This document shows positions 25,801-43,978 of a stretch of 64,000 nt of DNA, piece after piece; within the stretch, counting starts at the first letter, position 1; every line of letters starts with the position of its first letter. The position numbers were made by a program, and so were the translations under genes. A model generated the notes under the pieces. It was not told where the DNA came from, did not search any database, and saw only the letters and a list, made by a program, of their open reading frames with translations. The DNA is taken from the NCBI RefSeq assembly GCF_036634195.1, contig NZ_JAZIFY010000001.1, forward strand, positions 6,458,501 through 6,522,500, read 5' to 3'. This stretch comes from Streptomyces sp. P9-A4. Its GTDB lineage: Bacteria; Actinomycetota; Actinomycetes; Streptomycetales; Streptomycetaceae.

Positions 25801-26595
25801 GTGGCAGACGATTCGAGATCAACAGACAAGAACGCATTCGGGTCGTACGCGGCGATCGGTGACAGCTTCACCGAGGGCGTCGGAGACCCCGGACCCGACG
25901 GGACCTACGTCGGCTGGGCGGACCGCTTCGCGGTGCTGCTCGCCGACCAGCTGCCGGAGCACGACGCCTTCCGCTACGCCAACCTGGCCGTACGTGGGCG
26001 CCTCCTCGATCAGATCGTGGCGGAACAGGTCCCCAGGGCGAAGGAACTCGCCCCCGATCTGGTCACCTTCTGCGCCGGCGGAAACGACATCATCCGCCCC
26101 GGCACGGACCCCGACGACGTCGCCGAGCGCTTCGAGCGCGCCGTCGCCGAACTGACCTCCGCCGTCGGCACCGTCATGGTGACCACCGGCTTCGACACCC
26201 GCGACGTGATCCTCCTCAAGCACCTGCGCGGCAAGATCGCCACCTACAACGGGCACGTCCGGGCCATCGCCGACCGCTACGGGTGCCCCGTCCTCGACCT
26301 GTGGTCGCTGAAGTCCGTCCAGGACCGGCGCGCCTGGGACGACGACCGGCTGCATCTCTCGCCCGACGGCCACACCCGGGTCGCGCTGCGCGCCGCCCAG
26401 GTCCTCGACATGCCGGTCCCCGCCGACCCGGACCAGGCGTGGCCGCCGGTTCCCCCGCGCGGCACGCTCGAAGTGCGCCGCGACGACATCCACTGGGCGA
26501 AGGAGTACCTCGTGCCGTGGATCGGGCGCCGCCTGCGCGGCGAGAGCTCCGGCGACCACGTCGAGCCCAAGCGCCCGAACCTCATGCCCCTGTAG
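25801..26595 (+). CDS. SGNH/GDSL-family hydrolase (cytoplasmic)
   Basis: A 264-residue esterase/lipase-like protein without a signal peptide. Block I is YAAIGDSFTEGVGD with the nucleophile S22, block III is FCAGGNDII, and block V is DRLHLSPDGH with the catalytic Asp and His. The GTG at 25801 follows AAGGA. The substrate is unknown; this group is widespread in actinobacteria as a cytosolic acyl hydrolase. Its end overlaps the converging radical SAM gene by 14 bases. Confidence 0.9.
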   Translation: MADDSRSTDKNAFGSYAAIGDSFTEGVGDPGPDGTYVGWADRFAVLLADQLPEHDAFRYANLAVRGRLLDQIVAEQVPRAKELAPDLVTFCAGGNDIIRPGTDPDDVAERFERAVAELTSAVGTVMVTTGFDTRDVILLKHLRGKIATYNGHVRAIADRYGCPVLDLWSLKSVQDRRAWDDDRLHLSPDGHTRVALRAAQVLDMPVPADPDQAWPPVPPRGTLEVRRDDIHWAKEYLVPWIGRRLRGESSGDHVEPKRPNLMPL

Positions 26596-27460
26596 TCGGG
26601 GCCACGGCCGCCGGGCTTACGCCGGCGGGGATCCGCTCCAGGACCCCGCCGGCGAACACGTCGTACAGCGGCAGCGTCTCCAGATGGACGTAGCCGATGT
26701 GACAGTCGCAGACGGCGAGCGGACAGGCGCGGGGGCGCAGGGCGGCCCGGTACGAACCGTCGTACAGGTTCCCCAGCTCGGCCTTGACGAAGTGGCAGCG
26801 CCGAACCGTCCCCTCGCCGTCCACCGAGATCACCGACTCCCCGGTCCGGCAGGGCAGCCCGGCCGAGCGGTGCGGATGACGGCTGTACGGGAACAGCGGG
26901 TCGATCCGCGTCCACTCCGCCGCCTCCGCGTCGGTGTACGTGTGCCCCTCCGCCGCGTTCACCCAGAGGTAGACGTGCGCCGGCAGCGCCGCCCGCAGCC
27001 TGCGGGCGTGCTCCGCGTGTTCGGGAAGGCCCACCACGCCGACGCTGAACCGGATGCCCCGGTCGGCCAGCTCACCGCACTTGCCGAGGAAGCGCTCGTA
27101 CGGCGTCTGCCCCGGGTGGTACGTGCACCAGAGCGCCACGCTCTCCGGGTCCGCCTCCGCCAGCCAGTCGGTCCGGCAGCTCAGATTGGTCTGGATCGCC
27201 ACCCGCTCGACGTGCGGAAGCCGGGACAGTTCGACCAGCGCCCGCCGGTACCAGGAGCGGACGAGGCCCTCGCCCCACGGGGTGAAGAGGATCCGCAGCC
27301 GGTCGCCGGTCCGGCCGGCGGCCCAGCCGGCGAACCGGTCGAGCGCGGCCCGGTCCGCGCGCAGCTGCTCCCGGCTGTCGCGGCGCTTGGCGAAGGGGCA
27401 GTAGGGGCAGTCGAAGTCGCAGGAGGAGAGCGGGCCGCGGTAGAGCAGCGTCAGGTCCAT
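26582..27460 (-). CDS. STM4011-family radical SAM protein
   Basis: A 292-residue radical SAM enzyme with the cluster motif CDFDCPYCPFAKRRD (Cx3Cx2C) near the N-terminus. Cys residues near the C-terminus (PCRTGE, RRCHF and CPLAVCDCHIGY) suggest auxiliary iron-sulfur clusters. It belongs to a five-gene set named after Salmonella STM4011-STM4015 whose function is unknown. The ATG at 27460 (MDLTLLYRGP) matches the family start, but a GTG at 27502, nine bases after the upstream stop, gives a partly duplicated N-terminus and may be used instead. It is last in the operon. Confidence 0.88.
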   Translation of the reverse strand: MDLTLLYRGPLSSCDFDCPYCPFAKRRDSREQLRADRAALDRFAGWAAGRTGDRLRILFTPWGEGLVRSWYRRALVELSRLPHVERVAIQTNLSCRTDWLAEADPESVALWCTYHPGQTPYERFLGKCGELADRGIRFSVGVVGLPEHAEHARRLRAALPAHVYLWVNAAEGHTYTDAEAAEWTRIDPLFPYSRHPHRSAGLPCRTGESVISVDGEGTVRRCHFVKAELGNLYDGSYRAALRPRACPLAVCDCHIGYVHLETLPLYDVFAGGVLERIPAGVSPAAVAPTTGA

Positions 27461-27511
27461 GCCCGTGGCCGGGCCGGGTGACAGGAGCGGTGTCAGGTCC
27501 ACGGTCGCCGC

Positions 27512-28855
27512 CTACTTCGCCTCGTACGCGGCCATCGCGGCCCGTACGGCGGGGGAGAAGAGCTCGGGGCCCAGCCCGTCGGAGTGCGCGAGGCCCTCGG
27601 GGGACAGGCGCAGCAGCCCCGCCGGGGCCGCCGTGTCCAGCCAGCCGTAGCCCTCGAACCGGGCGAGGTCCGGGCCGAAGTCGGTGAAGGGAGAAGAACC
27701 GAATCGCGCCTCGTACCCGTCGACGGGCATCCCCTCCGCCTGGAGCAGCGACTGGAGGAGGTGACGGCGCCGGGCCTCGGCCCCGGTCGTTCCGTAGCCG
27801 TGCCGGGCGCGTGCGAAGTCCTCCGTCTCCGTGTAGGTGTCGATGATCGTGCGGATCCTCCGCATGTCGACGGCGTAGTCGAAGGAGTAGTGCAGGGCGG
27901 AGGTGTACGAGCGGGCCCCGCAGCCCAGGCCGATCATGCCGTCCGTCTGGCAGGCGTAGTCGTCCGGGCCGGAGGGACCGGCGTCCGCGCGGCGGAACAT
28001 CCGCATCGACACCTGCTCGTAGCCGTGCGCGAGGAGATGGTCCCTGCCGTACCGGTAGAGGCGGAGCCGCTGCTCGTCCCAGGCCTGGTCGGCCGCCGCG
28101 GGGTCCTGGATCCGGCCGAGGCCGGTGAGCGGGCGTACGTACAGCGGATAGAGGTACAGCTCCTCGGGCCGCCAGGCGAGGGCCGCGTCCAGCGAGAGCC
28201 GCCATGACCGCTCCGTCTGGCCGTCGATCCCGTAGATCAGGTCGATGTTCAGCACGGGGACGCCGGTCTCCCGGATGCGGCCGAGCGCCGCCTCGACGTC
28301 GGCGCGCCGCTGCGGCCGGACGGCCGCCCGTGCCTCGGCCTCCACGAAGCTCTGCACGCCGATGCTGAGCCGGGTCGCTCCCCGCTCGGCGAGGACCGCG
28401 AGGCGGTCGGCGGTCGCCGTCGACGGCGAGGTCTCCACGGAGAGCGGCACCGCCCGCAGATCCGCCCCCATCCGCTTCTCGGCGATGTCGCAGAGCCGCT
28501 CCAGCTCGGCGGCGGTGAGGAAGGTGGGCGTGCCGCCGCCGAACGCGGCCGTCGCGAACCGCACCGGTTCGGTGTCCCCGAGGGCCTCGCGCACGGCGGT
28601 GGCCTGACGGTCGAGTGCGTCGAGGTAGCGGGTCGTCAGCTCGTCCGGGGCGCCGATGCGGGTGAAGAGGTTGCAGAAACCGCAGCGGACCTCGCAGAAC
28701 GGTATGTGCGCGTAGAGGGAGAGCGCGTCCTTCGGCTCGCCCCGCCAGAGCGCGGCCAGGGACGGCCCCGGGGCGGGCAGCGGCCGGTACGCCGTCTTGT
28801 GCGGGTACGCGTAGACATAGCTCCGGTACGGGCGCGGGGTGGCTCGGTCGCTCAT
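27512..28855 (-). CDS. STM4012-family radical SAM protein (HemW-like)
   Basis: A 447-residue radical SAM protein related to HemW/coproporphyrinogen oxidase-like enzymes. The motif is IPFCEVRCGFCNLF (Cx3Cx2C), with AFGGGTPTFL and IGVQSF typical of this group. The ATG at 28855 overlaps the STM4013 stop (ATGA), so translation is coupled. The substrate is unknown. Neighbours suggest a multi-step modification carried out with the other four proteins. Confidence 0.9.
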   Translation of the reverse strand: MSDRATPRPYRSYVYAYPHKTAYRPLPAPGPSLAALWRGEPKDALSLYAHIPFCEVRCGFCNLFTRIGAPDELTTRYLDALDRQATAVREALGDTEPVRFATAAFGGGTPTFLTAAELERLCDIAEKRMGADLRAVPLSVETSPSTATADRLAVLAERGATRLSIGVQSFVEAEARAAVRPQRRADVEAALGRIRETGVPVLNIDLIYGIDGQTERSWRLSLDAALAWRPEELYLYPLYVRPLTGLGRIQDPAAADQAWDEQRLRLYRYGRDHLLAHGYEQVSMRMFRRADAGPSGPDDYACQTDGMIGLGCGARSYTSALHYSFDYAVDMRRIRTIIDTYTETEDFARARHGYGTTGAEARRRHLLQSLLQAEGMPVDGYEARFGSSPFTDFGPDLARFEGYGWLDTAAPAGLLRLSPEGLAHSDGLGPELFSPAVRAAMAAYEAK

Positions 28856-29688
28856 GCCACGGCCTCCGGCTCCGGGCCCGCCAGCTCGAACTGCGCGTAC
28901 GGGACGGTCCAGACGACCTCGTGGCCGAGGCGATGGCCGGTGTGGCCGTCCTCCCCGTAGGCCGTGCCGTGGTCGGAGCAGACGATCGCGAAGCACGGGC
29001 GGCGGCTGCTCATCGCGGCGAAGAGCCGCCCGATGTGCCGGTCGATGTAGACGAGGGCCGCCGCGTGGGTGGCCCGGGAGTCGCCGGCCTCGCGGGTCGC
29101 GCCCGGCAGGTGGAACCAGTTGGGCTGGTGCAGCGCGGACACGTTGACGAAGAGGAACAGCCGTTGCTCGTGGGGGAGCCCGGCGACGACCTCCTCGGCG
29201 CGCGTCACCTGCGACTCGAAGGAGGTGGGGGAGGCCACGCCGAAGGAGGGCTCCCAGTGGCTCTCCTGGAAGAGGTCCGGGAGCACGGAGCCGAGCGGCG
29301 GCTGCTTGTTGAAGAACCCGACGCCGCCGACGCACACGGTCCGGTAGCCCTCGCCCACGAGGGCGGAGACGAAGTCCGGGGTGTCGTGGACGTAGGTGCC
29401 GTCGGCGGTCGACTCGCTGCCCGCGAAACGGGCGGCGAACAGACGCGGGTGCGGGCCCGGGGTGGCCGGCGTCGGCAGGAAGCCGGCGAATATCGCCTGG
29501 TGGGAGGCGTAGGTGAAGCTGCCGGGAGCGTGCCGCCGCTCCCAGGCCCCGCCGGGGAGATGGCGGGCCAGGTGCGGGATGCGGCCCTCGGCCGCCAGCT
29601 CCACCGCCACGTCGTACCGGAGCGTGTCGAGGGTGACCAGGAGGAGATCGTGGCTTCCGACGATCGCGTTCATGTCGGGCTGGTTCAC
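28852..29688 (-). CDS. STM4013-family sulfatase/alkaline-phosphatase-like hydrolase
   Basis: A 278-residue protein of the alkaline phosphatase superfamily. The N-terminal LLLVTLDTLRYDV supplies a metal aspartate and the nucleophile Thr region; the C-terminal CSDHGTAYGEDGHTGHRLGH supplies metal Asp/His residues. It may hydrolyse a phosphate or sulfate ester or transfer a phospho-group. The GTG at 29688 overlaps the STM4014 stop (GTGA); an ATG at 29673 is also possible. Confidence 0.87.
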   Translation of the reverse strand: MNQPDMNAIVGSHDLLLVTLDTLRYDVAVELAAEGRIPHLARHLPGGAWERRHAPGSFTYASHQAIFAGFLPTPATPGPHPRLFAARFAGSESTADGTYVHDTPDFVSALVGEGYRTVCVGGVGFFNKQPPLGSVLPDLFQESHWEPSFGVASPTSFESQVTRAEEVVAGLPHEQRLFLFVNVSALHQPNWFHLPGATREAGDSRATHAAALVYIDRHIGRLFAAMSSRRPCFAIVCSDHGTAYGEDGHTGHRLGHEVVWTVPYAQFELAGPEPEAVA

Positions 29689-30881
29689 GCGGTGCTCGTT
29701 CCTGTGGTGCTGGTGCTGGTGCTGGTGCTGGTGCTGGTGCCGGTGGTGTTGGCAGTGGTTCTTGTGGTGTGCCACCCGCGGTCGGCCGGGAACTGCGCCG
29801 CGACCTGGGCCTCGTACGTGTCGAGGCCCTCCGCCCCGCTGCCGGGCAGGCCCGTGAGGCCCGGGAGCAGATCCCCGAAGGCGTTCACCTCGCCCACGGC
29901 GAAGCGGCGCCAGCCCGTGGAGGGCAGCAGGTCCACGCCCACGCACCGGGTGCCGGGGAAGACGGCCGCGGCCCGCTCGCACACCCCGAGCGCGTCCGTC
30001 CACCGCCCGCCGGCCGCGCCGATCGCGGCGCGGGCCGCGTCGAGATCGCCCCGGGCGCCGCCCAGATGCAGGTTGGTCATGGGGGAGCGGCTGGTGCGGA
30101 GCACCGCATGGGTGGCCCGCCCGTCGACGACGACCACCCGCAGGTCGGCGGCCCGGCCGTCCTGGGTGGCCTTGGGCAGCCAGCGCTCGACGTGCAGACC
30201 GTCGGGGGCGAGGGCGTCCACGATCGCGGCGACCTCGCTCTCGCTGGTGTAGCGCCGTACCCGCAGGGAGTTGAAGAGCCGCCCGCCGGGCCCGCGCTCC
30301 ACCGAGGTGGTGGCCTGGATCCGCCCCGCGCCGTTCGTCTCGACGGCCAGCACGCCCGAGGCGGAGGATCCGTGCGCGAGCTTCACGAACACCCTGCGCA
30401 TCCCGGTCCCGGCGGTCAGCGCCTTCACATCGGCCCAGCCGCGCACGGCGGGGGCGGACGGCCCGGACGTCGGGGACTCGGGCACCGGGACTCCGGCGGC
30501 GCTCAGCAGGCCGTGGCTCAGCCGCTTGTCGAACAGGGCCGCCAGCTCGGCGGGGTCGTCGACGAGGACGGCGCCCGAACCGGCGACGGTCCCGGCGAGC
30601 TCAGCCGCGGCGGCGAGGAACCGCGCGTACCAGCGGCCGGTGCCCTCCACCCGCGACGGTTCGTCGACCCCCCGGAGCAGCCGGTCGGCCTCCGGGTCCT
30701 CACCGGGCGAGTCCAGGCGTACGGTCTCGCCCGCGGCGAACCGCGCCGTGCCGCGGAGTACTTCGGGCCATGACACCGCCCGCGCCTCGGGCAGCCCGGC
30801 GGACCGCAGCGCGTCCCGGAAGAACGCGACGCGACGGCCCGCCGGATCGCCGACGACCACGAGGCGCGGGCGGGCGGTCAT
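29685..30881 (-). CDS. STM4014-family protein, ATP-grasp-like
   Basis: A 398-residue protein. RRVFVKLAHGSSASGVLAVE and the acidic FAVGEVNAFGDLLPG near residue 345 resemble the nucleotide and metal-binding parts of ATP-grasp ligases, so a ligase role is plausible but inferred. The C-terminal ~25 residues are an unusual Ser-Thr repeat encoded by a hexanucleotide tandem array at 29706-29741. It starts at ATG 30881, overlapping the STM4015 stop (ATGA). Confidence 0.82.
   Translation of the reverse strand: MTARPRLVVVGDPAGRRVAFFRDALRSAGLPEARAVSWPEVLRGTARFAAGETVRLDSPGEDPEADRLLRGVDEPSRVEGTGRWYARFLAAAAELAGTVAGSGAVLVDDPAELAALFDKRLSHGLLSAAGVPVPESPTSGPSAPAVRGWADVKALTAGTGMRRVFVKLAHGSSASGVLAVETNGAGRIQATTSVERGPGGRLFNSLRVRRYTSESEVAAIVDALAPDGLHVERWLPKATQDGRAADLRVVVVDGRATHAVLRTSRSPMTNLHLGGARGDLDAARAAIGAAGGRWTDALGVCERAAAVFPGTRCVGVDLLPSTGWRRFAVGEVNAFGDLLPGLTGLPGSGAEGLDTYEAQVAAQFPADRGWHTTRTTANTTGTSTSTSTSTSTTGTSTA
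29706..29741. repeat. Hexanucleotide tandem repeat at the 3' end of the STM4014 gene
   Basis: Five perfect GGTGCT units and one GGTGCC. On the coding strand it reads AGCACC, giving alternating Ser-Thr. Unit length is a multiple of three, so copy-number change would alter tail length without a frameshift. It lies only 18 bases from the STM4013 start. Confidence 0.9.
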
Positions 30882-31837
30882 TCGGCGACCGCGACGTACC
30901 GGTAGACCTCGCCGTCGCCGTCGTCCTCCGGATCCTGCGGGTCGTCGAGGACGACGGTCACGCCGTGCGGCACGAGGGCGGAGCTGAGCCGGTCCGCCAT
31001 GGCCTGGGAAAGATAGTGGTGGGTGAGGTCGAGACGGGTGAGATGGGTCAGCGGCTGCCCGTCGAGCAGGGCCGCCGCGCCCTCGTCGGTGAGTACGCCC
31101 ATGGACAGGTCGAGCCGCTCGATCCGGGCGACGACCGGGGCGCCCGCCACGGCGGCGGCGACGGCGTCCTGGATCACGCTGTTGCACAGACCGAGGGAGC
31201 GCAGGGCGGGGAACGACGAGCCGGAGAGCAGCGGCGCCAGGTCCTCGGTCGTGCTGTCACCGCCGTACTCGTCGGTGCCGAGCCACAGTTCCAGCTTCTC
31301 CAGGGCGGGCAGGTCGCTGCCCACGATCCCGCGCACCACCTCGGCGCCCAGGCCGCCCGTCTCCACGACCAGGGTCTCCAGGCAGTTGTGCCGGATGGAG
31401 GGGAAGGCCAGGCTCGTGCCGCCGCGGACCGCGAACTCCCGCAGGGCCGGGTAGGCGGCGAGCAGCGGGGTCACATCGGACTGCACGATCCACGAGATCT
31501 CGCAGTCCTCGGACCCCATCTCCCCGAGGAACACGGCCTCCAGGCCGGTGAGCCGGTTGTTCGCGGCGATGAGCGCCGTGACGATGGCGGCGGACGACTC
31601 CTCGTACGCCTCGTTCCAGCCGCCGACGATCAGCGCCCGCACCCTGCCCGTGTCCACCGTCTTCAGGAACCGCTCGAACAGCGGCCCCCACTCCTCGTCC
31701 CCGGGGTCGCTGTACGTGGGGGCGGAGATCCGCCAGGCCACGTCCGCCGCGCCGGGCAGCTCGCCCCGCGCGTCCGCGTCGGGGAACTCGAACACGGGCA
31801 GTCCGTGGAATTTCCTCAGGTGGTGGCCAACGGTCAT
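30878..31837 (-). CDS. STM4015-family leucine-rich repeat protein
   Basis: A 319-residue protein with leucine-rich repeat-like segments, for example LPALEKLELWLG, FPALRSLGLCNS, IERLDLSMGVLTDEGAAALL and LTRLDLTHHYLS. Such folds bind proteins or peptides, so it may present a substrate to the modifying enzymes encoded downstream. The ATG at 31837 is preferred (GGGAG upstream). It is first in the five-gene operon, behind a DNA-damage-type promoter. Confidence 0.88.
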   Translation of the reverse strand: MTVGHHLRKFHGLPVFEFPDADARGELPGAADVAWRISAPTYSDPGDEEWGPLFERFLKTVDTGRVRALIVGGWNEAYEESSAAIVTALIAANNRLTGLEAVFLGEMGSEDCEISWIVQSDVTPLLAAYPALREFAVRGGTSLAFPSIRHNCLETLVVETGGLGAEVVRGIVGSDLPALEKLELWLGTDEYGGDSTTEDLAPLLSGSSFPALRSLGLCNSVIQDAVAAAVAGAPVVARIERLDLSMGVLTDEGAAALLDGQPLTHLTRLDLTHHYLSQAMADRLSSALVPHGVTVVLDDPQDPEDDGDGEVYRYVAVAE

Positions 31838-31883
31838 GACGGTGCTCCCGGCGACGGACGACGTGGATCGGCTGATGCCAAGA

Positions 31884-31906
31884 GTTGTACCAAGCGGCAC
31901 TGACAA
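31884..31906 (-). promoter_or_regulatory. PafBC-like DNA-damage promoter of the STM4015-4011 operon
   Basis: On the minus strand the sequence reads TTGTCAGTG, eight bases, TACAAC. The mycobacterial RecA-independent (PafBC) promoter consensus, as I recall it, is TTGTCRGTG-N8-TAnnnT. Only the last base of the -10 differs. It ends 47 bases before the STM4015 ATG. Confidence 0.7.
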
Positions 31907-31957
31907 CGCCCTTGGCCGGGTCGGCTCGACGGGGCCGGGGGCCGGATTCGGGGCCCG

Positions 31958-31980
31958 TTGTCAGACCCGGCCTCTAGCGT
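31958..31980 (+). promoter_or_regulatory. PafBC-like DNA-damage promoter of the DUF6745 module
   Basis: TTGTCAGAC, eight bases, TAGCGT on the plus strand. The -10 fits TAnnnT exactly and the upstream half differs from TTGTCRGTG at two bases. It points away from the minus-strand promoter 52 bases away and precedes the ATG at 32025 by 45 bases. Confidence 0.65.
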
Positions 31981-32024
31981 CGTTCCCATGTCCGGCCACA
32001 CCGGCCGGACGGGGAGGGAGAGCC

Positions 32025-32351
32025 ATGTACCGGCAGGGAGACGTGCTGATCGCGCCCGTCGAGGAGACGGCCGTTCCCGAGCGTGCCAGGACGGCCGCGG
32101 GGGAGCCCAGGGACGCCAGGGGCCGGCTGGTCCTCGCGCTCGGCGAGGTCACCCGTCACGCCCACGCGATCCCCGGACCCGGGCGGCTCGTGCGGGAGCC
32201 GGGGCCCTTCGGCCCGCTCCTGCTCGAACTCCCTGAGGGGGGCCGGGTGGTGCACGAGGAGCACGCGCCGATCGCGCTGCCCAAGGGCTGGTACCGGGTC
32301 GTGCGCCAGCGGGAGTACGTGCCCGGCGCGTACCGGATCGTCGCGGACTGA
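32025..32351 (+). CDS. Conserved hypothetical protein, partner of DUF6745
   Basis: A 108-residue protein with the pattern YRQGDVLIAPV, LALGEVTRHAHAI, VVHEEHAPIALPKGWYRVVRQREY. The three conserved His-containing stretches suggest a beta-rich fold that may bind metal, but no function is known to me. The ATG at 32025 follows GGGGAGGGAG. It is followed 84 bases later by the DUF6745 gene, and the pair is divergent from the STM4015-4011 operon. Confidence 0.75.
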   Translation: MYRQGDVLIAPVEETAVPERARTAAGEPRDARGRLVLALGEVTRHAHAIPGPGRLVREPGPFGPLLLELPEGGRVVHEEHAPIALPKGWYRVVRQREYVPGAYRIVAD

Positions 32352-32435
32352 CCGCCTCACCCACTGGCCGACCGAACGACTCACCGCATGACCGAGAACC
32401 CGCACCGACCGAACGAGATCCTGGGGGACACCGAC

Positions 32436-33455
32436 ATGAACCGCACCACCGCACAGGACAAGTGGCGCTCCGTCGCCGCGGCCACCGGGCCCGCCGACCG
32501 CGCCGCCGCCGAGGCCGGCGTCCGGCTCGCCTACCGCACGGCCGGCCTCGCCGAACCCGACCGCGTCCTCTGGGCGGACTCGCCCGTCGAGGCCGTGGCG
32601 CTCCTGGCCCGCCTGCCGGACCCGGGCCGCTCGGTACGGGAGGAGGTGCGCACCCGACCGTGGGCCGAGGAGCGGCGCCGCCTCCACGACGCCCTGGGGC
32701 CCGCCGCCTGGGCGGCGCACTGGCAGTCGACCGGGGCGGTGCTCTGGGACCTCACCCGGGCCCTCGCCGACCGGATACGGGCGGGGGTGACCGAGGCCGT
32801 CGAGGCGGCGGAGGAGGGGGACGAAGGGCCGGACGACGTCCGTCTCGTACTGCTCGACGCGGTGCTCGGTCAGCACGACGCCGCCTGGCTCGCCGCGTTC
32901 GACGGCCAGGGCGAGCGCCTCGCGGGCCTCGCCGCCGTCGCCGAGAACGCCGGCTGGTGGTGGCCGTACGAGAACGCCGTCGTGGTCTGCGAGCGTCCCG
33001 TCGAACTCCACCGCGACGAGGCCGGGCGGCTCGACCGGGGCGACGGCCCCGCACTCGCCTACCCCGACGGATTCGCCCTGCACGCCTGGCGGGGCATGAC
33101 GGTGCCCGCGGAGTTCCTCGCCGGACTCGCCGGACTCACCCCCGAGCGGATACGGCAGGAGGAGAACGCCGAACTGCGGCGCGTGATGCTGGAGTACTAC
33201 GGCTACGACCGCTACCTCGCCGCCTCAGGAGCCGTGCACGAGCACCAGGACGAGACGGGTGTCCTCTGGCGGATCGGACTGCCCGACGACGAGGACGTGG
33301 TGATGGTCGAGGTCGTCAACTCCACTCCCGAGCCCGACGGCAGCCATCGCACCTACTGGCTGCGGGTGCCGCCGACGACCAGGACCGCGCGCCAGGGCGT
33401 CGCCTGGACCTTCGGTCTGCAGCCCGACGCGTACGCGCCGCTCGTCCAGACCTGA
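32436..33455 (+). CDS. DUF6745-type protein
   Basis: A 339-residue cytoplasmic protein of unknown function. The middle region AENAGWWWPYENAVVVCERP and the C-terminal half with HRDEAGRLDRGDGPALAYPDGF match the DUF6745 type. VLWRIGLPDDEDVVMVEVVNSTPEPDG closes the conserved part. The ATG at 32436 has GGGGGA eight bases upstream and is preferred over the ATG at 32388, which has none. It is probably co-transcribed with the preceding gene from the DNA-damage-like promoter. Confidence 0.75.
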   Translation: MNRTTAQDKWRSVAAATGPADRAAAEAGVRLAYRTAGLAEPDRVLWADSPVEAVALLARLPDPGRSVREEVRTRPWAEERRRLHDALGPAAWAAHWQSTGAVLWDLTRALADRIRAGVTEAVEAAEEGDEGPDDVRLVLLDAVLGQHDAAWLAAFDGQGERLAGLAAVAENAGWWWPYENAVVVCERPVELHRDEAGRLDRGDGPALAYPDGFALHAWRGMTVPAEFLAGLAGLTPERIRQEENAELRRVMLEYYGYDRYLAASGAVHEHQDETGVLWRIGLPDDEDVVMVEVVNSTPEPDGSHRTYWLRVPPTTRTARQGVAWTFGLQPDAYAPLVQT

Positions 33456-39186: not shown

Positions 39187-42100
39187 CTAGTCCGTGTCCG
39201 GGGCGTAGCGGCTGGGCCAGTAGAACTGCCGCCGGTGGGTGGGTTTGTCGTCACCATACGTCGGCCCCGCGAGCATGCCCTCGATGCGGATGATGGGTGC
39301 GCAGAAATCGGGGCAGACGCTGCGCATGGCCGCGCCGTGGGTGGGCAGCCAGTCGTCCGAGCCTTTGCCGTGCAGACGACTGAGGTAGTGGAGGATGTTC
39401 TGCTCCGCATGCCCGCCTGGGACCTTGGGCGGCGTCGGGGGGAGGTACTGGTCGTTGGGGAGCGGGTAGAGGCCCATCTCCTCGGCCAGCTTCCGCTGGG
39501 CGGGCGTCAGCTTGCTCTTGCTGGTTCCGGCGACGATGAGGACGTCCTTGCCCTTGTGGCGGGTGGCGATGACCGCGACGGTCTGCCCCTCCCGTTGCCG
39601 CTTGTTGGGCAGGACTTGGGAGATCTTGTGTGCCATGTCCTCCAGTCCCTGCATGCAGGGCGCCAGGCCGAGGGGGTCGGCCTCGGTGGCGGGGTTGGCG
39701 ACGTAGCCGGCGGGGTTGGGGGCGGGGTCCAGGCCGAGCGGATCAGGGCTGACGTAGCGGCCGGCCTCGGGGTCGTAGTGGCGGAAGAAGTTGTAGTGCA
39801 GGCCGGTCTCGGGGTCGGCGTACTGGCCGGGGGAGCGCAGCGGGGTGTGTGCGCTGGCGTCCCGGTTCCAGGCGGTGGCGCCCCACTGGGTGGCGCGGCT
39901 GTACCAGGCGGTGGCGCCCGTGTGGTCGACGAGTTCTGTGGGTGTGCCGACGAGGTCGGTGACGATCGCGAAGAAGCGGGCGTCGACGGAGTCCTGGTCG
40001 CCGCCGGGGTTCTGCGTCGTGCGGCGCTCGGCCTGAGCGATCGGGCGGTGGCCGTCGTACTCCCAGGTCACGGTGGTGCCGGTGGAGGAGTCGGTCTGTT
40101 CCGCCAGGCGGCTGCCGTCCCAGCTGAAGAGGGTCTCGGCGACGACGGTGCCGTCGTCGGCGTGCCGGCGCTTGGCGATGCGGCGGCCGAGCGGGTCGTA
40201 GCGGTAGGTCCATCGGGTGCCGTCGGGTGTGGTGCAGGCGGTCAGTCGGTCGGCCGCGTCCCACTCGTAGCGCCAGATGTCCGGCTTGCGGGATATTCGC
40301 TTCTTGCGCCGTTCGACGATGCGGCCTGCCGCGTCGTAGGTGTAGTGCAGGGCGCCGGCGGATCGCAGTCGGTTGCCGCTGTACGTACGCCGGCCGCGGG
40401 ACTCGGGGTGCGGGGCCTTGTCCGGCCACTGGGCGGAGGTCTGGTTGCCCTCGCTGTCGTAGGCGTAGGTCTCGGTCCAGCCGTGGGACTCGATGCGCAG
40501 GGGTCGTCCCGCCGGGTCGAGTTCGTAATGCCTGCGATTGCCCGTCAGCCCGTCGGTGACGGTCTCCAGACGGTCGTCGGCGCGGTAGGCGTAGAGGCGG
40601 CGGCTGAGGGTCCGGTCCAGGGTGGTGAGGCGGTGTTCCCTGATCCGGCCCACCGCGTCGTAGGTGGTGCCGAGGACCACGGGTCGCTCGGGGCTGCCGA
40701 AGGACCGGGTCACCTCTCGGCCGGTGGCGTCGTGGGAGAAGGCGATGCCGTGGCCGTCGAGGGATACGCGGGTGCGGTTGCCCGCCTCGTCGTGGGTGAG
40801 ACGGGTGGTGGACCCGCCAGGAGTAACCCGCAGGGTCCGGCGCGAGAGTGCGTCGTAGCTGTACCGGCTGGTGCGCCGGTCGATGGTCTCGGCGACCGTG
40901 CGGCCCATGGCGTCCCACTCCAGCGCGAGGACGGAGTCGGTGGAGTGTGCCTCGGTGAGGCGGCCGGACCGGTCGTAGGTGTAGGTGGTGACGGCGCCCT
41001 CGACATCGCGGGCGGTGACGCGGCCGGCGTCGTCCAGGTGGGTGGTGACGGTCTGACCCAGCGGGTTGGTGCGGCTGCGCGCGCGGCCCGAGGGGTCGTA
41101 GCCGTAGCGCAGGGTGCGGCCGTCGAAGTCGGTCTCGGAGACCAGACGCCCCACGGCGTCGTACGCGTAGCTCCAGGTCAGTCCGGCGGCGTTGCGCACC
41201 TCGGTGAGGCGTAGTTCGGTGTCGTAACGGAAGTCGTAGCGGGCGCCGTCCGGAGTGGTGCGGGAGGCCGGCTGGTCGAAGTGGGTGTACTCGTATCGGG
41301 TGATACCGCCGTTGGCGTCGGTCTCGGTGAGGCAGTTGCCCTCCCCGTCGTAGGTCCACCGTTGGGTGGCGCCGTCGGGGCGGGTGTGTGAGGCGAAGTG
41401 GCCTTCGACGGTCCACGTGCACGTGGTGGCGGCACCGTCGGCATCCGTGACGGAGACGGGCCGGCCGAACGCGTCGCGAACCAGGGTGGTCGTCCTGCCC
41501 TGGGCATCGGTGTGGGCCAGGACCATACCGGCCTCGTCCGAGCGGTAGCTCTGCCGGACGCCCAGCGGGTCGGTGACCGCGGCGAGGGCTCCGTTCGGGT
41601 CGTACGCGTAGTGGGTGGTGGCCCCGTCCGGCGTGGTCAGGGAGACGTTGTTGCCGCGATCGTCGTAGGTGCGGTGCCACACGCTTCCGTCGGCGGCGGT
41701 CACGACGGTGGGCAGGCCCCGTTCGTCGTACCGTGTGGTGGCGAGGGAGCCGTCCGGCTCGCGTACGGAAGTGGGGTTGCCGTCCTCGTCCCAGGTGTAG
41801 GTGACGGTGCGGCCCTGGCTGTCGGTGCGGCTCTGGAGCCGGTCGTAGCGGTCCCAGATCTGGCTGATGGTGTTGCCCAGGGGGTCGGTCTCGGCGACGA
41901 CCTGGAGGCGGTGGTTGAGATGGAAGACGCTTGTGGCGCCGGTGGAGTCGGTGTAGCGGGTGACGCCCCCCTCGCTGTCGTAGGAGAAGGACGAGGACAG
42001 GAAGCCGTCGGGTCCCACGGTCCGGACCACGCGGCCGGCGTCGTCGTAGACGTACAGGTAGGTGGACCGGTTGCGGTCGGTCCATGAGGTGATGCGGCCG

Positions 42101-43920
42101 GTGGGGTCGTAGGCGAAGCGCATTGCCGTGCCTGAGGAGTTGGTGACGGCATCGAGGTTGCCGTCCGCGTCGTATCCGTACGGCATGACGGTGACGGGGC
42201 CTTGCGGGGTGCGAACACGCAGGGTGGTGATCCGGTCGTCGGTCACGTCCACCTGGACCCTGTAGCCGCCGCTGTGGGACACCATGGATGGCGCGCCGTC
42301 CGGGCGGCGGGTGAAGACGATGGTGTTGCCGTGGCGGTCGCTCAGTTCGGCGAGCCAGTAGGCCGGGGATGTGCGGTAGGGACTCCCGGTGAACGAGCGG
42401 GTGAGCCCTGCGGGTTCGGACAGGGTGTAGGTGGTCTCGTTCTCGTACACGCCGCCGTGGACGAGGGCGATCCGCGGTCCCTCAACGGGCCAGACCCGGT
42501 CTTCGCCGGGCTGCGGGAGCCGGGGGTAGACGAGGCACGATCCGTCGCTGCGGGCCCAGACGACACCCGGTCCCACGGGGTCGGCTTCCAGGCGCTCGTC
42601 GAAGAGCGAGGACCAGCTGCGGCCGAACCAGTGACCGTAGCGGTACGTCGACAGGTGTGTTCGGTCCACGACGAGGGGGAGCACGCCGGGCAGGGAGAGG
42701 TCGACCTGTGGCAGGGTCATCTCCCCCGTCGCGATGTCCACTGGGTCGGACCTGCACGTCTTGCGGTCCAGCGGGATGGAGTGACGACGCGCGTCGTCAC
42801 GGACTTCGCGCAGTCCGTTGGGCCTCGTTCGAGCGCTGTCGCCGGGCTTCCTTCGGTGCGGCGTCCGGGAGTCGCCCCCGCCGGTGTTGTCGTGGTCGCC
42901 CTTGCGCTGGCGGGCGAGGCGGTCGCGGATGTCGTCGTCGTTGTTCTTGTGGTCCTTGGAGATCTGCTTGACGGCCTTGGGGAGCGTCTCGCCGATGTGG
43001 TCGCCCATGGTCTTGGCGGACTTCACGAGGGCGCCCATGGCCTTCTCGATGACCGGGTCGAGGGCGTCGGCGATGTCGTCCCGGCCCTTGTTGCGTCCCT
43101 GGTGCCCCTTGGCCTTGGTCAGCTTTCCTGCGGTCTTGCCGTGGATCCCGACGCTCACACCGTTCAGCTTCGTGCCGGCCTGGTCGTGCTCGTCGTGCTC
43201 GATGTGGAAGCCCTTGCCCTTGCCCCCGCCGCCGCCCCCACCCGCGGAGGCGAGGTTCAGGCCCTCCTTGGCGCCCTGCACACCCTCGTCGAAGCCGTCC
43301 TTGCCGGCCTGCTTGGTCTGGTCGAGGTCCACGCCGTTCTGGACGCCCAGTGCGTCCATGCTCACCTGGACGACCAGGTCGGCGGCCATGTTCTCCAGCG
43401 AGGCCACGACCGGCTCGGTCATCACCGAGACGATGTGACCGACCGCCTCCTGCATTGCATTTGTGATCAGCTTCAGAAGTTGCTTCTTCGTGAACGCGAT
43501 CGCACCCGCGCCGAGCAGTGCGGACAGACCACCGGTCACCGGGATCAGCGCCATGGCCAGACCGGTCTGGCCGGCCAGGATCCCGAGCTCCGCGACGGCC
43601 TTCCACTTCATGCCCTCGATCGCGCCCGCCGCGAGGTCGAGCGCGTCCGCGATCGTCCGGGCGGCCGACACCATGTCCTTGAGGTGCTTGTCCTTGACCT
43701 TGCCCCAGTGGGCGTTGAGCGCGTCCATCGCCTCGCCGTGACCCGACGACAGCAGGCGCTGGACGTGGTTGTTGGCGAGCTGACCGTCGTCGGCGAGATC
43801 GTCCGCGAACTCCCGCAGCGCATCTGCCAGGTCGCGGTACGCGTCCTCGTCGACGTTGGGCCAGTTCACCCCCACGAGGTCCAGCAGAGTGTCCGCCCAG
43901 TCCGGCACTGTGACAGTCAT
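39187..43920 (-). CDS. Rhs-repeat polymorphic toxin with deaminase-like C-terminal domain
   Basis: A protein of about 1577 residues. Residues 1-200 resemble the WXG100-like/CpnT-type N-terminal domain used with type VII secretion (LVGVNWPNVDEDAYRDLADA). A Gly/Lys linker follows, then DUF6531 (DPVDIATGEMTLPQVDLSLP) and over twenty YD/RHS repeats. The core closes with YDPETGLHYNFFRHYDPEAG and PDPLGL. The variable tail from about 1415 carries GGHAEQN (H1504, E1506) and CPDFC (C1536, C1540), the H-x-E and C-xn-C zinc pattern of the deaminase fold. An ATG at 43944 with GGAAAG is an alternative start. No signal peptide is seen. Confidence 0.88.
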   Translation of the reverse strand: MTVTVPDWADTLLDLVGVNWPNVDEDAYRDLADALREFADDLADDGQLANNHVQRLLSSGHGEAMDALNAHWGKVKDKHLKDMVSAARTIADALDLAAGAIEGMKWKAVAELGILAGQTGLAMALIPVTGGLSALLGAGAIAFTKKQLLKLITNAMQEAVGHIVSVMTEPVVASLENMAADLVVQVSMDALGVQNGVDLDQTKQAGKDGFDEGVQGAKEGLNLASAGGGGGGGKGKGFHIEHDEHDQAGTKLNGVSVGIHGKTAGKLTKAKGHQGRNKGRDDIADALDPVIEKAMGALVKSAKTMGDHIGETLPKAVKQISKDHKNNDDDIRDRLARQRKGDHDNTGGGDSRTPHRRKPGDSARTRPNGLREVRDDARRHSIPLDRKTCRSDPVDIATGEMTLPQVDLSLPGVLPLVVDRTHLSTYRYGHWFGRSWSSLFDERLEADPVGPGVVWARSDGSCLVYPRLPQPGEDRVWPVEGPRIALVHGGVYENETTYTLSEPAGLTRSFTGSPYRTSPAYWLAELSDRHGNTIVFTRRPDGAPSMVSHSGGYRVQVDVTDDRITTLRVRTPQGPVTVMPYGYDADGNLDAVTNSSGTAMRFAYDPTGRITSWTDRNRSTYLYVYDDAGRVVRTVGPDGFLSSSFSYDSEGGVTRYTDSTGATSVFHLNHRLQVVAETDPLGNTISQIWDRYDRLQSRTDSQGRTVTYTWDEDGNPTSVREPDGSLATTRYDERGLPTVVTAADGSVWHRTYDDRGNNVSLTTPDGATTHYAYDPNGALAAVTDPLGVRQSYRSDEAGMVLAHTDAQGRTTTLVRDAFGRPVSVTDADGAATTCTWTVEGHFASHTRPDGATQRWTYDGEGNCLTETDANGGITRYEYTHFDQPASRTTPDGARYDFRYDTELRLTEVRNAAGLTWSYAYDAVGRLVSETDFDGRTLRYGYDPSGRARSRTNPLGQTVTTHLDDAGRVTARDVEGAVTTYTYDRSGRLTEAHSTDSVLALEWDAMGRTVAETIDRRTSRYSYDALSRRTLRVTPGGSTTRLTHDEAGNRTRVSLDGHGIAFSHDATGREVTRSFGSPERPVVLGTTYDAVGRIREHRLTTLDRTLSRRLYAYRADDRLETVTDGLTGNRRHYELDPAGRPLRIESHGWTETYAYDSEGNQTSAQWPDKAPHPESRGRRTYSGNRLRSAGALHYTYDAAGRIVERRKKRISRKPDIWRYEWDAADRLTACTTPDGTRWTYRYDPLGRRIAKRRHADDGTVVAETLFSWDGSRLAEQTDSSTGTTVTWEYDGHRPIAQAERRTTQNPGGDQDSVDARFFAIVTDLVGTPTELVDHTGATAWYSRATQWGATAWNRDASAHTPLRSPGQYADPETGLHYNFFRHYDPEAGRYVSPDPLGLDPAPNPAGYVANPATEADPLGLAPCMQGLEDMAHKISQVLPNKRQREGQTVAVIATRHKGKDVLIVAGTSKSKLTPAQRKLAEEMGLYPLPNDQYLPPTPPKVPGGHAEQNILHYLSRLHGKGSDDWLPTHGAAMRSVCPDFCAPIIRIEGMLAGPTYGDDKPTHRRQFYWPSRYAPDTD

Positions 43921-43978
43921 GACCAACAGCGGCGACCGGAGCATCGCACTTTCCGATCATCGGATCGTTGGTCCGATC

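Follow-up and report, generated by a model that had tools for sequence, protein, structure and literature searches.

In the window (the whole 64-kb stretch of DNA analysed), seven genes are arranged around the intergenic region 31838-32024, five on the minus strand (STM4015 to STM4011) and two, SP and the DUF6745 gene, on the plus strand. The intergenic region holds two promoter-like motifs on opposite strands that point away from each other (Table 1). The NCBIfam families STM4011-STM4015 are named after Salmonella genes, and all five minus-strand proteins scored over the curated cut-offs and are members of these families. The original prediction described an operon with two radical SAM enzymes, a sulfatase-like hydrolase, an ATP-grasp-like protein and a leucine-rich-repeat protein, and the profile matches agree with this content. 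A literature search by name for STM4011-STM4015 and DUF6745 retrieved two papers that each mention one of the names once, and no functional study.

Table 1. Coordinates of genes and promoter elements at the locus, in window positions
Feature	Position	Strand	Details
STM4011 family radical SAM protein	26582..27502	-	NF038073, 420.1 bits
STM4012 family radical SAM protein, HemN/class-C-methyltransferase-like	27512..28855	-	NF006067, 630 bits
STM4013 family hydrolase, alkaline-phosphatase/NPP superfamily	28852..29673	-	NF038075, 419.1 bits; Sulfatase Pfam
STM4014 family protein, ATP-grasp-like	29685..30881	-	NF038074, 444.3 bits; weak RimK-family match
STM4015 family leucine-rich-repeat protein	30878..31837	-	NF038076, 389.5 bits (cut-off 275); start ATG at 31837 chosen
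Promoter-like element of the STM4015 operon	31884..31906	-	TTGTCAGTG (31906-31898), N8, TACAAC (31889-31884)
Extended -10 TG of the minus element	31892-31891	-	Read from sequence
RecA-NDp/PafBC-type promoter of SP-DUF6745	31958..31980	+	TTGTCAGAC (31958-31966), N8, TAGCGT (31975-31980)
SP, 108-aa beta-rich protein with invariant HxH and HxEH	32025..32351	+	phrog_27831, function unassigned
DUF6745 protein	32388..33455	+	PF20530, 380.6 bits; start uncertain

Domains and invariant residues of the seven proteins

Both radical SAM proteins carry a CxxxCxxC motif, with invariant cysteines at C54, C58 and C61 in STM4012, and at C28, C32 and C35 in STM4011, where five more cysteines (218, 236, 260, 265, and 267) are also invariant. 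STM4012 matched the structures 1olt (E = 2.6e-26) and NocN (9p2u; E = 1.6e-16). Spore photoproduct lyase is likewise a radical SAM enzyme and acts in DNA damage repair, but the radical SAM subfamilies matched by STM4011 and STM4012 are different ones. In STM4014, K119, K167, D317, E331, and N333 were invariant in 17 sequences. For STM4013, whose start was placed at M8 of the scanned frame, the alkaline-phosphatase-type residues D23, D241, H242, and H254 were invariant in the hydrolase set (including Salmonella and Deinococcus), and its profile gave a weak match over a short stretch (E = 2.2e-5) to the phosphodiesterase-nucleotide pyrophosphatase 2gsn. The radical SAM cysteines and the phosphatase-type and ATP-grasp-type residues were invariant across phyla, in sets that included Salmonella and Deinococcus, and their roles are presumed from what is typical of the families. 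STM4015 resembles an uncharacterized Bacteroides fragilis protein (PDB 2ra8, chain residues 81-346), a likeness that is a sequence match (E = 4.5e-39).

SP gave no match in Pfam or NCBIfam. Five of its residues (H45, H47, H77, E79, and H80) were invariant in 48 sequences, and its AlphaFold model is beta-rich, with a pLDDT of 89.3. Across 36 sequences of the DUF6745 protein, 23 positions are invariant; its model has a pLDDT of 81.6, and fold searches returned no match for either protein. Elsewhere in the window (39187-43944), a large YD-repeat protein is encoded, in which a C-terminal HAE...C-x3-C, seen in the translation only, resembles a deaminase.

The promoter elements, their conservation and the regulator

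Among 150 Streptomyces genomes, the STM4015 profile matched in 74 (71 over the cut-off) and the DUF6745 profile in 66 (63 over the cut-off). Of the 69 DUF6745 places listed, 64 were parsed; the five dropped were weak or partial, and the weakest STM4015 rows were dropped as well. At 55 of the 64, DUF6745 adjoins STM4015 and diverges from it. The other nine were seven distant copies (E = 1e-25 to 1e-30) not beside STM4015, one gene (G112) on a different contig than STM4015, and one (G142) whose genome had no match to STM4015.

The motifs were followed in 56 Streptomyces intergenic regions, made up of the window's own, 54 from fetched loci and one from a partial locus; they come from related species and hence are not independent. 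The plus consensus NTGTCRG-N10-TANNNT was kept in 54 of these (strict TTGTCAG in 46) and the minus variant TGTCRG-N7-TGRTANRMV in 55; a motif scan upstream of STM4015 and DUF6745 homologues had been proposed as a check, and in these regions it found the elements conserved. Invariant bases were T2, G3, C5, G7, T18, A19, and T23 in the plus element and T2-C5, G7, T15, G16, T18, and A19 in the minus element. Position 23 was T in all 56 plus elements and in none of the minus elements (C in 53, A in 3), and in the latter the conserved bases run beyond the -10 (T24 in 55 of 56). In the loci L080-L151 (0.56 Mb), 53 matches to the plus consensus were found against 1 for the reversed control, and 67 against 0 for the minus variant. 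The minus variant was also kept at 11 of 16 examined STM4015 loci without SP, the five misses comprising three STM4015 genes on their own and two loci that also have STM4014. GAACN4GTTC, the pattern of the LexA/SOS box, was present in none of the 56 regions. At locus L137, three GTCAGA-type half sites follow one another upstream of STM4015.

The plus element has a TTGTCRG box 17 nt before the TA of TAnnnT and, on its sequence, is a promoter of the RecA-NDp/PafBC class; it shares the TTGTCRGtg box, the 8-nt spacer and TAnnnT with such promoters in mycobacteria and at S. rimosus recA and S. coelicolor SCO6735. On the STM4015 side, box and spacing are those of the same class, but the -10 is extended and has C or A for the last T. 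Full membership of the minus element in the class was considered and rejected, as its -10 does not end in T, and we treat it as a putative PafBC-like, conserved extended -10 variant. As the minus element keeps box and spacing but has an extended -10 in place of the T of TAnnnT, use of PafBC at this site is predicted as likely rather than certain. The two divergent motifs thus lie where they had been proposed, facing away from each other, and their conservation marks them as non-chance, whereas the claim that both keep the exact geometry of the damage promoter holds fully for the plus site and, for the minus site, in box and spacing but not in TAnnnT.

In the 7.54-Mb genome, strict TTGTCAG-N10-TANNNT occurs 18 times, compared to once for a reversed-pattern control. 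The 18 include the plus site but not the minus site, whose -10 has C as its last base. When the window was scanned loosely (up to two mismatches), 3 matches were found against 5.77 expected, which is not significant. At ten of the 18 strict sites, the start codon of the chosen frame lies 6-7 nt past the -10, the layout of a leaderless message. A Pfam search of 12 of the 18 downstream proteins identified RecA, a DNA polymerase III beta-like protein (dnaN-like, three domains), an exonuclease/endonuclease-family protein (XthA-like, i.e., exonuclease III-like, by eye), two SWIM proteins, one WGR protein, an SNF2-type helicase domain (DUF3670), an MFS transporter, DUF4253, DUF4132, and two proteins without a family. 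The remaining strict sites were the window's own, four with only unconvincing or unsearched frames, and one (L009) with a frame outside the search. With RecA and the dnaN-like and exonuclease III-like proteins among its members, the set resembles a DNA-damage set, some members being unexplained. A set that includes recA is a feature in common with known RecA-NDp/PafBC promoters, from which the locus in the window differs in that its genes have no described DNA-repair role.

Two neighbouring WYL-domain genes lie between pafA (TIGR03686, 765.8 bits) and tatC (TIGR00945, 187.4 bits), the four standing in this order on one strand with other frames interspersed. Neither WYL protein had an NCBIfam match, and we therefore named them PafB and PafC on their WYL domains and gene order. 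PafBC has been reported to respond to single-stranded DNA (PMC11804915). Earlier papers already describe a TTGTCRG-type motif in Streptomyces (PMC2375139; PMC5087735) and UV induction of SCO6735 (PMC5087735), and a study of S. venezuelae reports that an initial search for the mycobacterial PafBC motif did not find it (PMC9380542). In contrast to that search, our counts and the older work place the motif in Streptomyces. No passage retrieved in the literature search linked a TTGTCRG-type motif to SP, DUF6745 or the STM4011-4015 genes.

Genome contigs were also scanned with the DUF6745 alignment, and 80 of 443 confirmed relatives were kept, 52 of these loci being actinobacterial. In all 15 Streptomyces loci counted, the plus consensus stood no more than 100 nt upstream of SP (the other three of 18 lacked an SP match, and some records may duplicate genomes of the 150-genome set), as it did in 30 of 34 loci of other Actinomycetota, 45 of 49 together; away from SP, 0.92 Mb of actinobacterial loci held 5 other matches, with 1 for the reversed control. 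Strict TTGTCAG was found in only 2 of the 34 loci outside Streptomyces, since C or A at the first base and G at the sixth are common there. The four misses were L271, one base off, and three Actinoplanes-type loci where other genes precede SP. In these three, all seven genes are co-oriented, the canonical motif precedes SP in none, and in two it is found at the operon head before STM4015 (TTGTCGG...TTAGGGT, with a GTG 7 nt downstream). On the STM4015 side of many Actinomadura loci, TGTC is combined with CTGATAGGAC, the final base being C. In a 396-genome sample of the rest of the phylum, STM4013 was over the cut-off in 6 genomes and DUF6745 in 10.

At two loci (L240 and L270), the STM4015 element lies inside an inverted repeat (TGTCGG...CCGAC) that is spelled differently in each of the two species and is possibly an operator or an RNA stem. 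Tandem STM4015 copies, accompanied by repeats of the promoter-like element, occur at L283 (Actinomadura viridilutea) and at G037:C16:59001-61173, as if gene and element duplicate jointly.

Searching 41 genomes of the genus for the minus variant as TGTCRG-N7-TGRTANAMC gave 37 matches in 27 genomes, compared to 3 for the reversed control. We fetched 30 of these loci; by reading, 14 were at the STM locus, four had the variant before PLD-helicase genes (Pfam PLDc_2, ResIII) and one before a priA-like gene (PriA_3primeBD), and the other 11 were seemingly unrelated, ambiguous or within genes. According to an earlier study, the S. coelicolor genes with recA-type motifs include priA (PMC2375139). In two Streptomyces genomes (L289 and L317), a minus-type element precedes a metallo-beta-lactamase-like gene near the chromosome end.

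Gene arrangements across phyla, phages and plasmids

The complete set of SP, DUF6745 and STM4011-4015 was present at 63 of the 80 genome-contig loci (42 of 52 actinobacterial, 21 of 28 other). Seven complete arrangements were seen, in which SP-DUF, 15-14 and 13-12-11 serve as the building blocks. Six loci had no STM match in the stretch (four SP-DUF6745, two DUF6745 alone), and the remaining 11 had a partial set, several of them at contig ends. The original prediction had spoken of an operon and a second two-gene module; its gene content stood, but a single seven-gene system, with blocks that change order from lineage to lineage, describes the locus better, and SP, DUF6745 and STM4011-4015 very probably form such a system. 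Record titles of the DUF6745 loci included Blastocatellia, Capsulimonas, Verrucomicrobia, Planctomycetota, and Methylobacterium, and the whole set was also found on annotated Deinococcus plasmids and one Methylobacterium plasmid.

Compared to the NCBIfam families as such, the STM4011-STM4015 genes are coupled here to SP-DUF6745 and to damage-type promoters. In the stretches examined from Salmonella and Paenibacillus, STM4015-4011 stands without SP-DUF6745, so the enzymes may be able to act on their own, and upstream of the cluster in Methylobacterium, Salmonella, and Paenibacillus no damage-type site was recognised. A HAD-type frame was seen by eye within six of eleven inspected non-actinobacterial clusters. 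On a Streptomyces albidoflavus plasmid (L206), an STM4013-family gene stands without the other six in the stretch examined, beside NUDIX and lasso-peptide B2 genes.

Among viral contigs, we kept 80 of 501 confirmed SP relatives. DUF6745 was also present in 54 of these stretches, the other 26 ending less than 1 kb after SP, and none of the 80 had a match to STM4011-4015. Few neighbours recur, single frames resembling primase, RusA, and ERF by eye. In Microcystis phage Ma-LMM01, SP and DUF6745 are adjacent, followed by a uracil-DNA glycosylase gene, and the pair sits between DNA polymerase and clamp-loader genes.

Searching the plasmid collection for SP gave four Deinococcus records, all of which were analysed for the RDRM, the site of the DdrO/IrrE radiation-desiccation regulon. 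Passages of the D. radiodurans regulon paper give the consensus TATGYYHTTARCRKA and state that RDRM sequence alone does not guarantee DdrO binding; SP, DUF6745 and the STM genes are not named in these passages (PMC8533742). In each fetched stretch, the best RDRM match lay 26-48 nt upstream of SP (scores 13, 13, 13, and 14 of 15), so that all four SP genes have a 17-bp RDRM-like candidate site directly upstream. At the three whole-set loci, the sole sites of at least 13/15 preceded the annotated start of SP by 42, 26, and 26 nt (3 observed against 0.58 expected under an order-2 Markov model). The fourth, D. ficus, has SP-DUF6745 with a 14/15 match 48 nt upstream of SP, and none of the genes annotated in the 12.3 kb examined is an STM gene. 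Single-region shuffles reached the score in 308 and 201 of 20,000, which makes the individual matches modest, and the site at L200 lies within an annotated hypothetical frame. Before STM4015, no match of at least 13 was found at the three Deinococcus loci with this gene. The RDRM-like sites at the four SP genes lend independent support to a damage link. PprI, like PafBC, has been reported to respond to single-stranded DNA (PMC10904395). On two Deinococcus plasmids, VWA-domain genes (L404, 7363-9222; L201, 3290-5308) lie near SP-DUF6745 or STM4015.

Damage control and possible function

Damage-type promoters in Streptomyces and relatives, and a Deinococcus damage-response site on part of the cluster, suggest that the locus probably helps against broken DNA. 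We read it, with a probability of roughly 0.6, as one seven-gene system under DNA-damage control, expressed from two divergent promoters, whose enzyme set would act together with SP-DUF6745 at damaged DNA; our best guess is a damage-induced modification system for DNA repair or replication. The parts of this reading differ in strength. From the motifs, damage control is predicted with good confidence for SP-DUF6745 and appears reasonably likely for the STM operon, while the odds that DNA repair or replication is the process served are about even.

The STM operon carries the strongest competing explanation, namely that only SP-DUF6745 belongs to the PafBC regulon and that the STM4015 element is a site of another regulator, or another promoter class, through which the operon answers another signal. 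The absence of T at minus position 23 in 56 loci where the plus element always has it, the conservation beyond the -10, the inverted repeat seen by eye around the box in some Actinomadura loci, and the Deinococcus STM4015 genes without an RDRM match of at least 13 are all in its favor. However, box, spacing and extended -10 fit the geometry of a -26-box promoter, the same variant precedes one priA-like and four PLD-helicase genes among the 30 fetched loci, and the canonical form itself stands at STM4015 in two Actinoplanes-type loci. We consider this explanation somewhat unlikely.

Under joint control of the seven genes, as we prefer, and by extension from mycobacterial work, damage would produce single-stranded DNA and thereby activate PafBC, which would help the housekeeping polymerase to start at the TTGTCRG box and -10. 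The products would be two radical SAM enzymes, an ATP-grasp-like ligase and an NPP/alkaline-phosphatase-like hydrolase, with the leucine-rich-repeat protein and SP-DUF6745. STM4015 might pick a large partner, which the ATP-grasp and radical SAM enzymes would modify, the hydrolase could strip or mature a phosphate-containing group, and SP-DUF6745 may work directly at damaged or stalled DNA. This chemistry of a selected partner, its modification and a hydrolase step is speculative. Somewhat less tentatively, the locus might represent a new DNA-damage response in several phyla, a radical-SAM/ATP-grasp pathway modifying a macromolecule chosen by the leucine-rich-repeat protein, with SP-DUF6745 at damaged DNA, placed independently under regulators that sense single-stranded DNA (PafBC in Actinomycetota, PprI-DdrO in Deinococcus).

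Provided that this regulation is correct, one gene pair has been adopted by two bacterial damage responses with no relation to each other, which would be a strong hint of a repair- or replication-linked job alongside radical chemistry. Seven families for which no described function was found turn into a single system that can be tested and whose trigger is likely. A further alternative is a small-molecule or cofactor pathway that is merely stress-induced and lies outside repair. Radical SAM, ATP-grasp, and NPP-like enzymes, with a HAD-type frame in several clusters, do look biosynthetic, and the damage-linked pair is absent from the versions in Salmonella and Paenibacillus, as far as the examined stretches reach; but sites of two unrelated damage regulons at SP-DUF6745, and phage carriage of the pair beside DNA genes, make such a pathway rather improbable.

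The original prediction also allowed for a defence system, and this part found little support. An antiphage or abortive-infection system with DNA damage as its alarm would agree with the patchy spread in Streptomyces (71 of 150 genomes over the STM4015 cut-off), with the plasmid copies and with SP-DUF6745 on phages, and STM4012 had one weak, partial PADLOC match (PDC-M51A, E = 3.2e-6). The other six proteins matched none of the PADLOC models (2023), the families of the recurrent gene set include no obvious toxin, nuclease or nucleotide-signal enzyme, and the Ma-LMM01 pair stands among DNA replication genes, so that we regard this reading as quite improbable. Chance or an annotation artefact has a negligible probability, for although the loose scan of the window was at background, the conservation counts and the 18 strict genomic matches against 1 contradict it.
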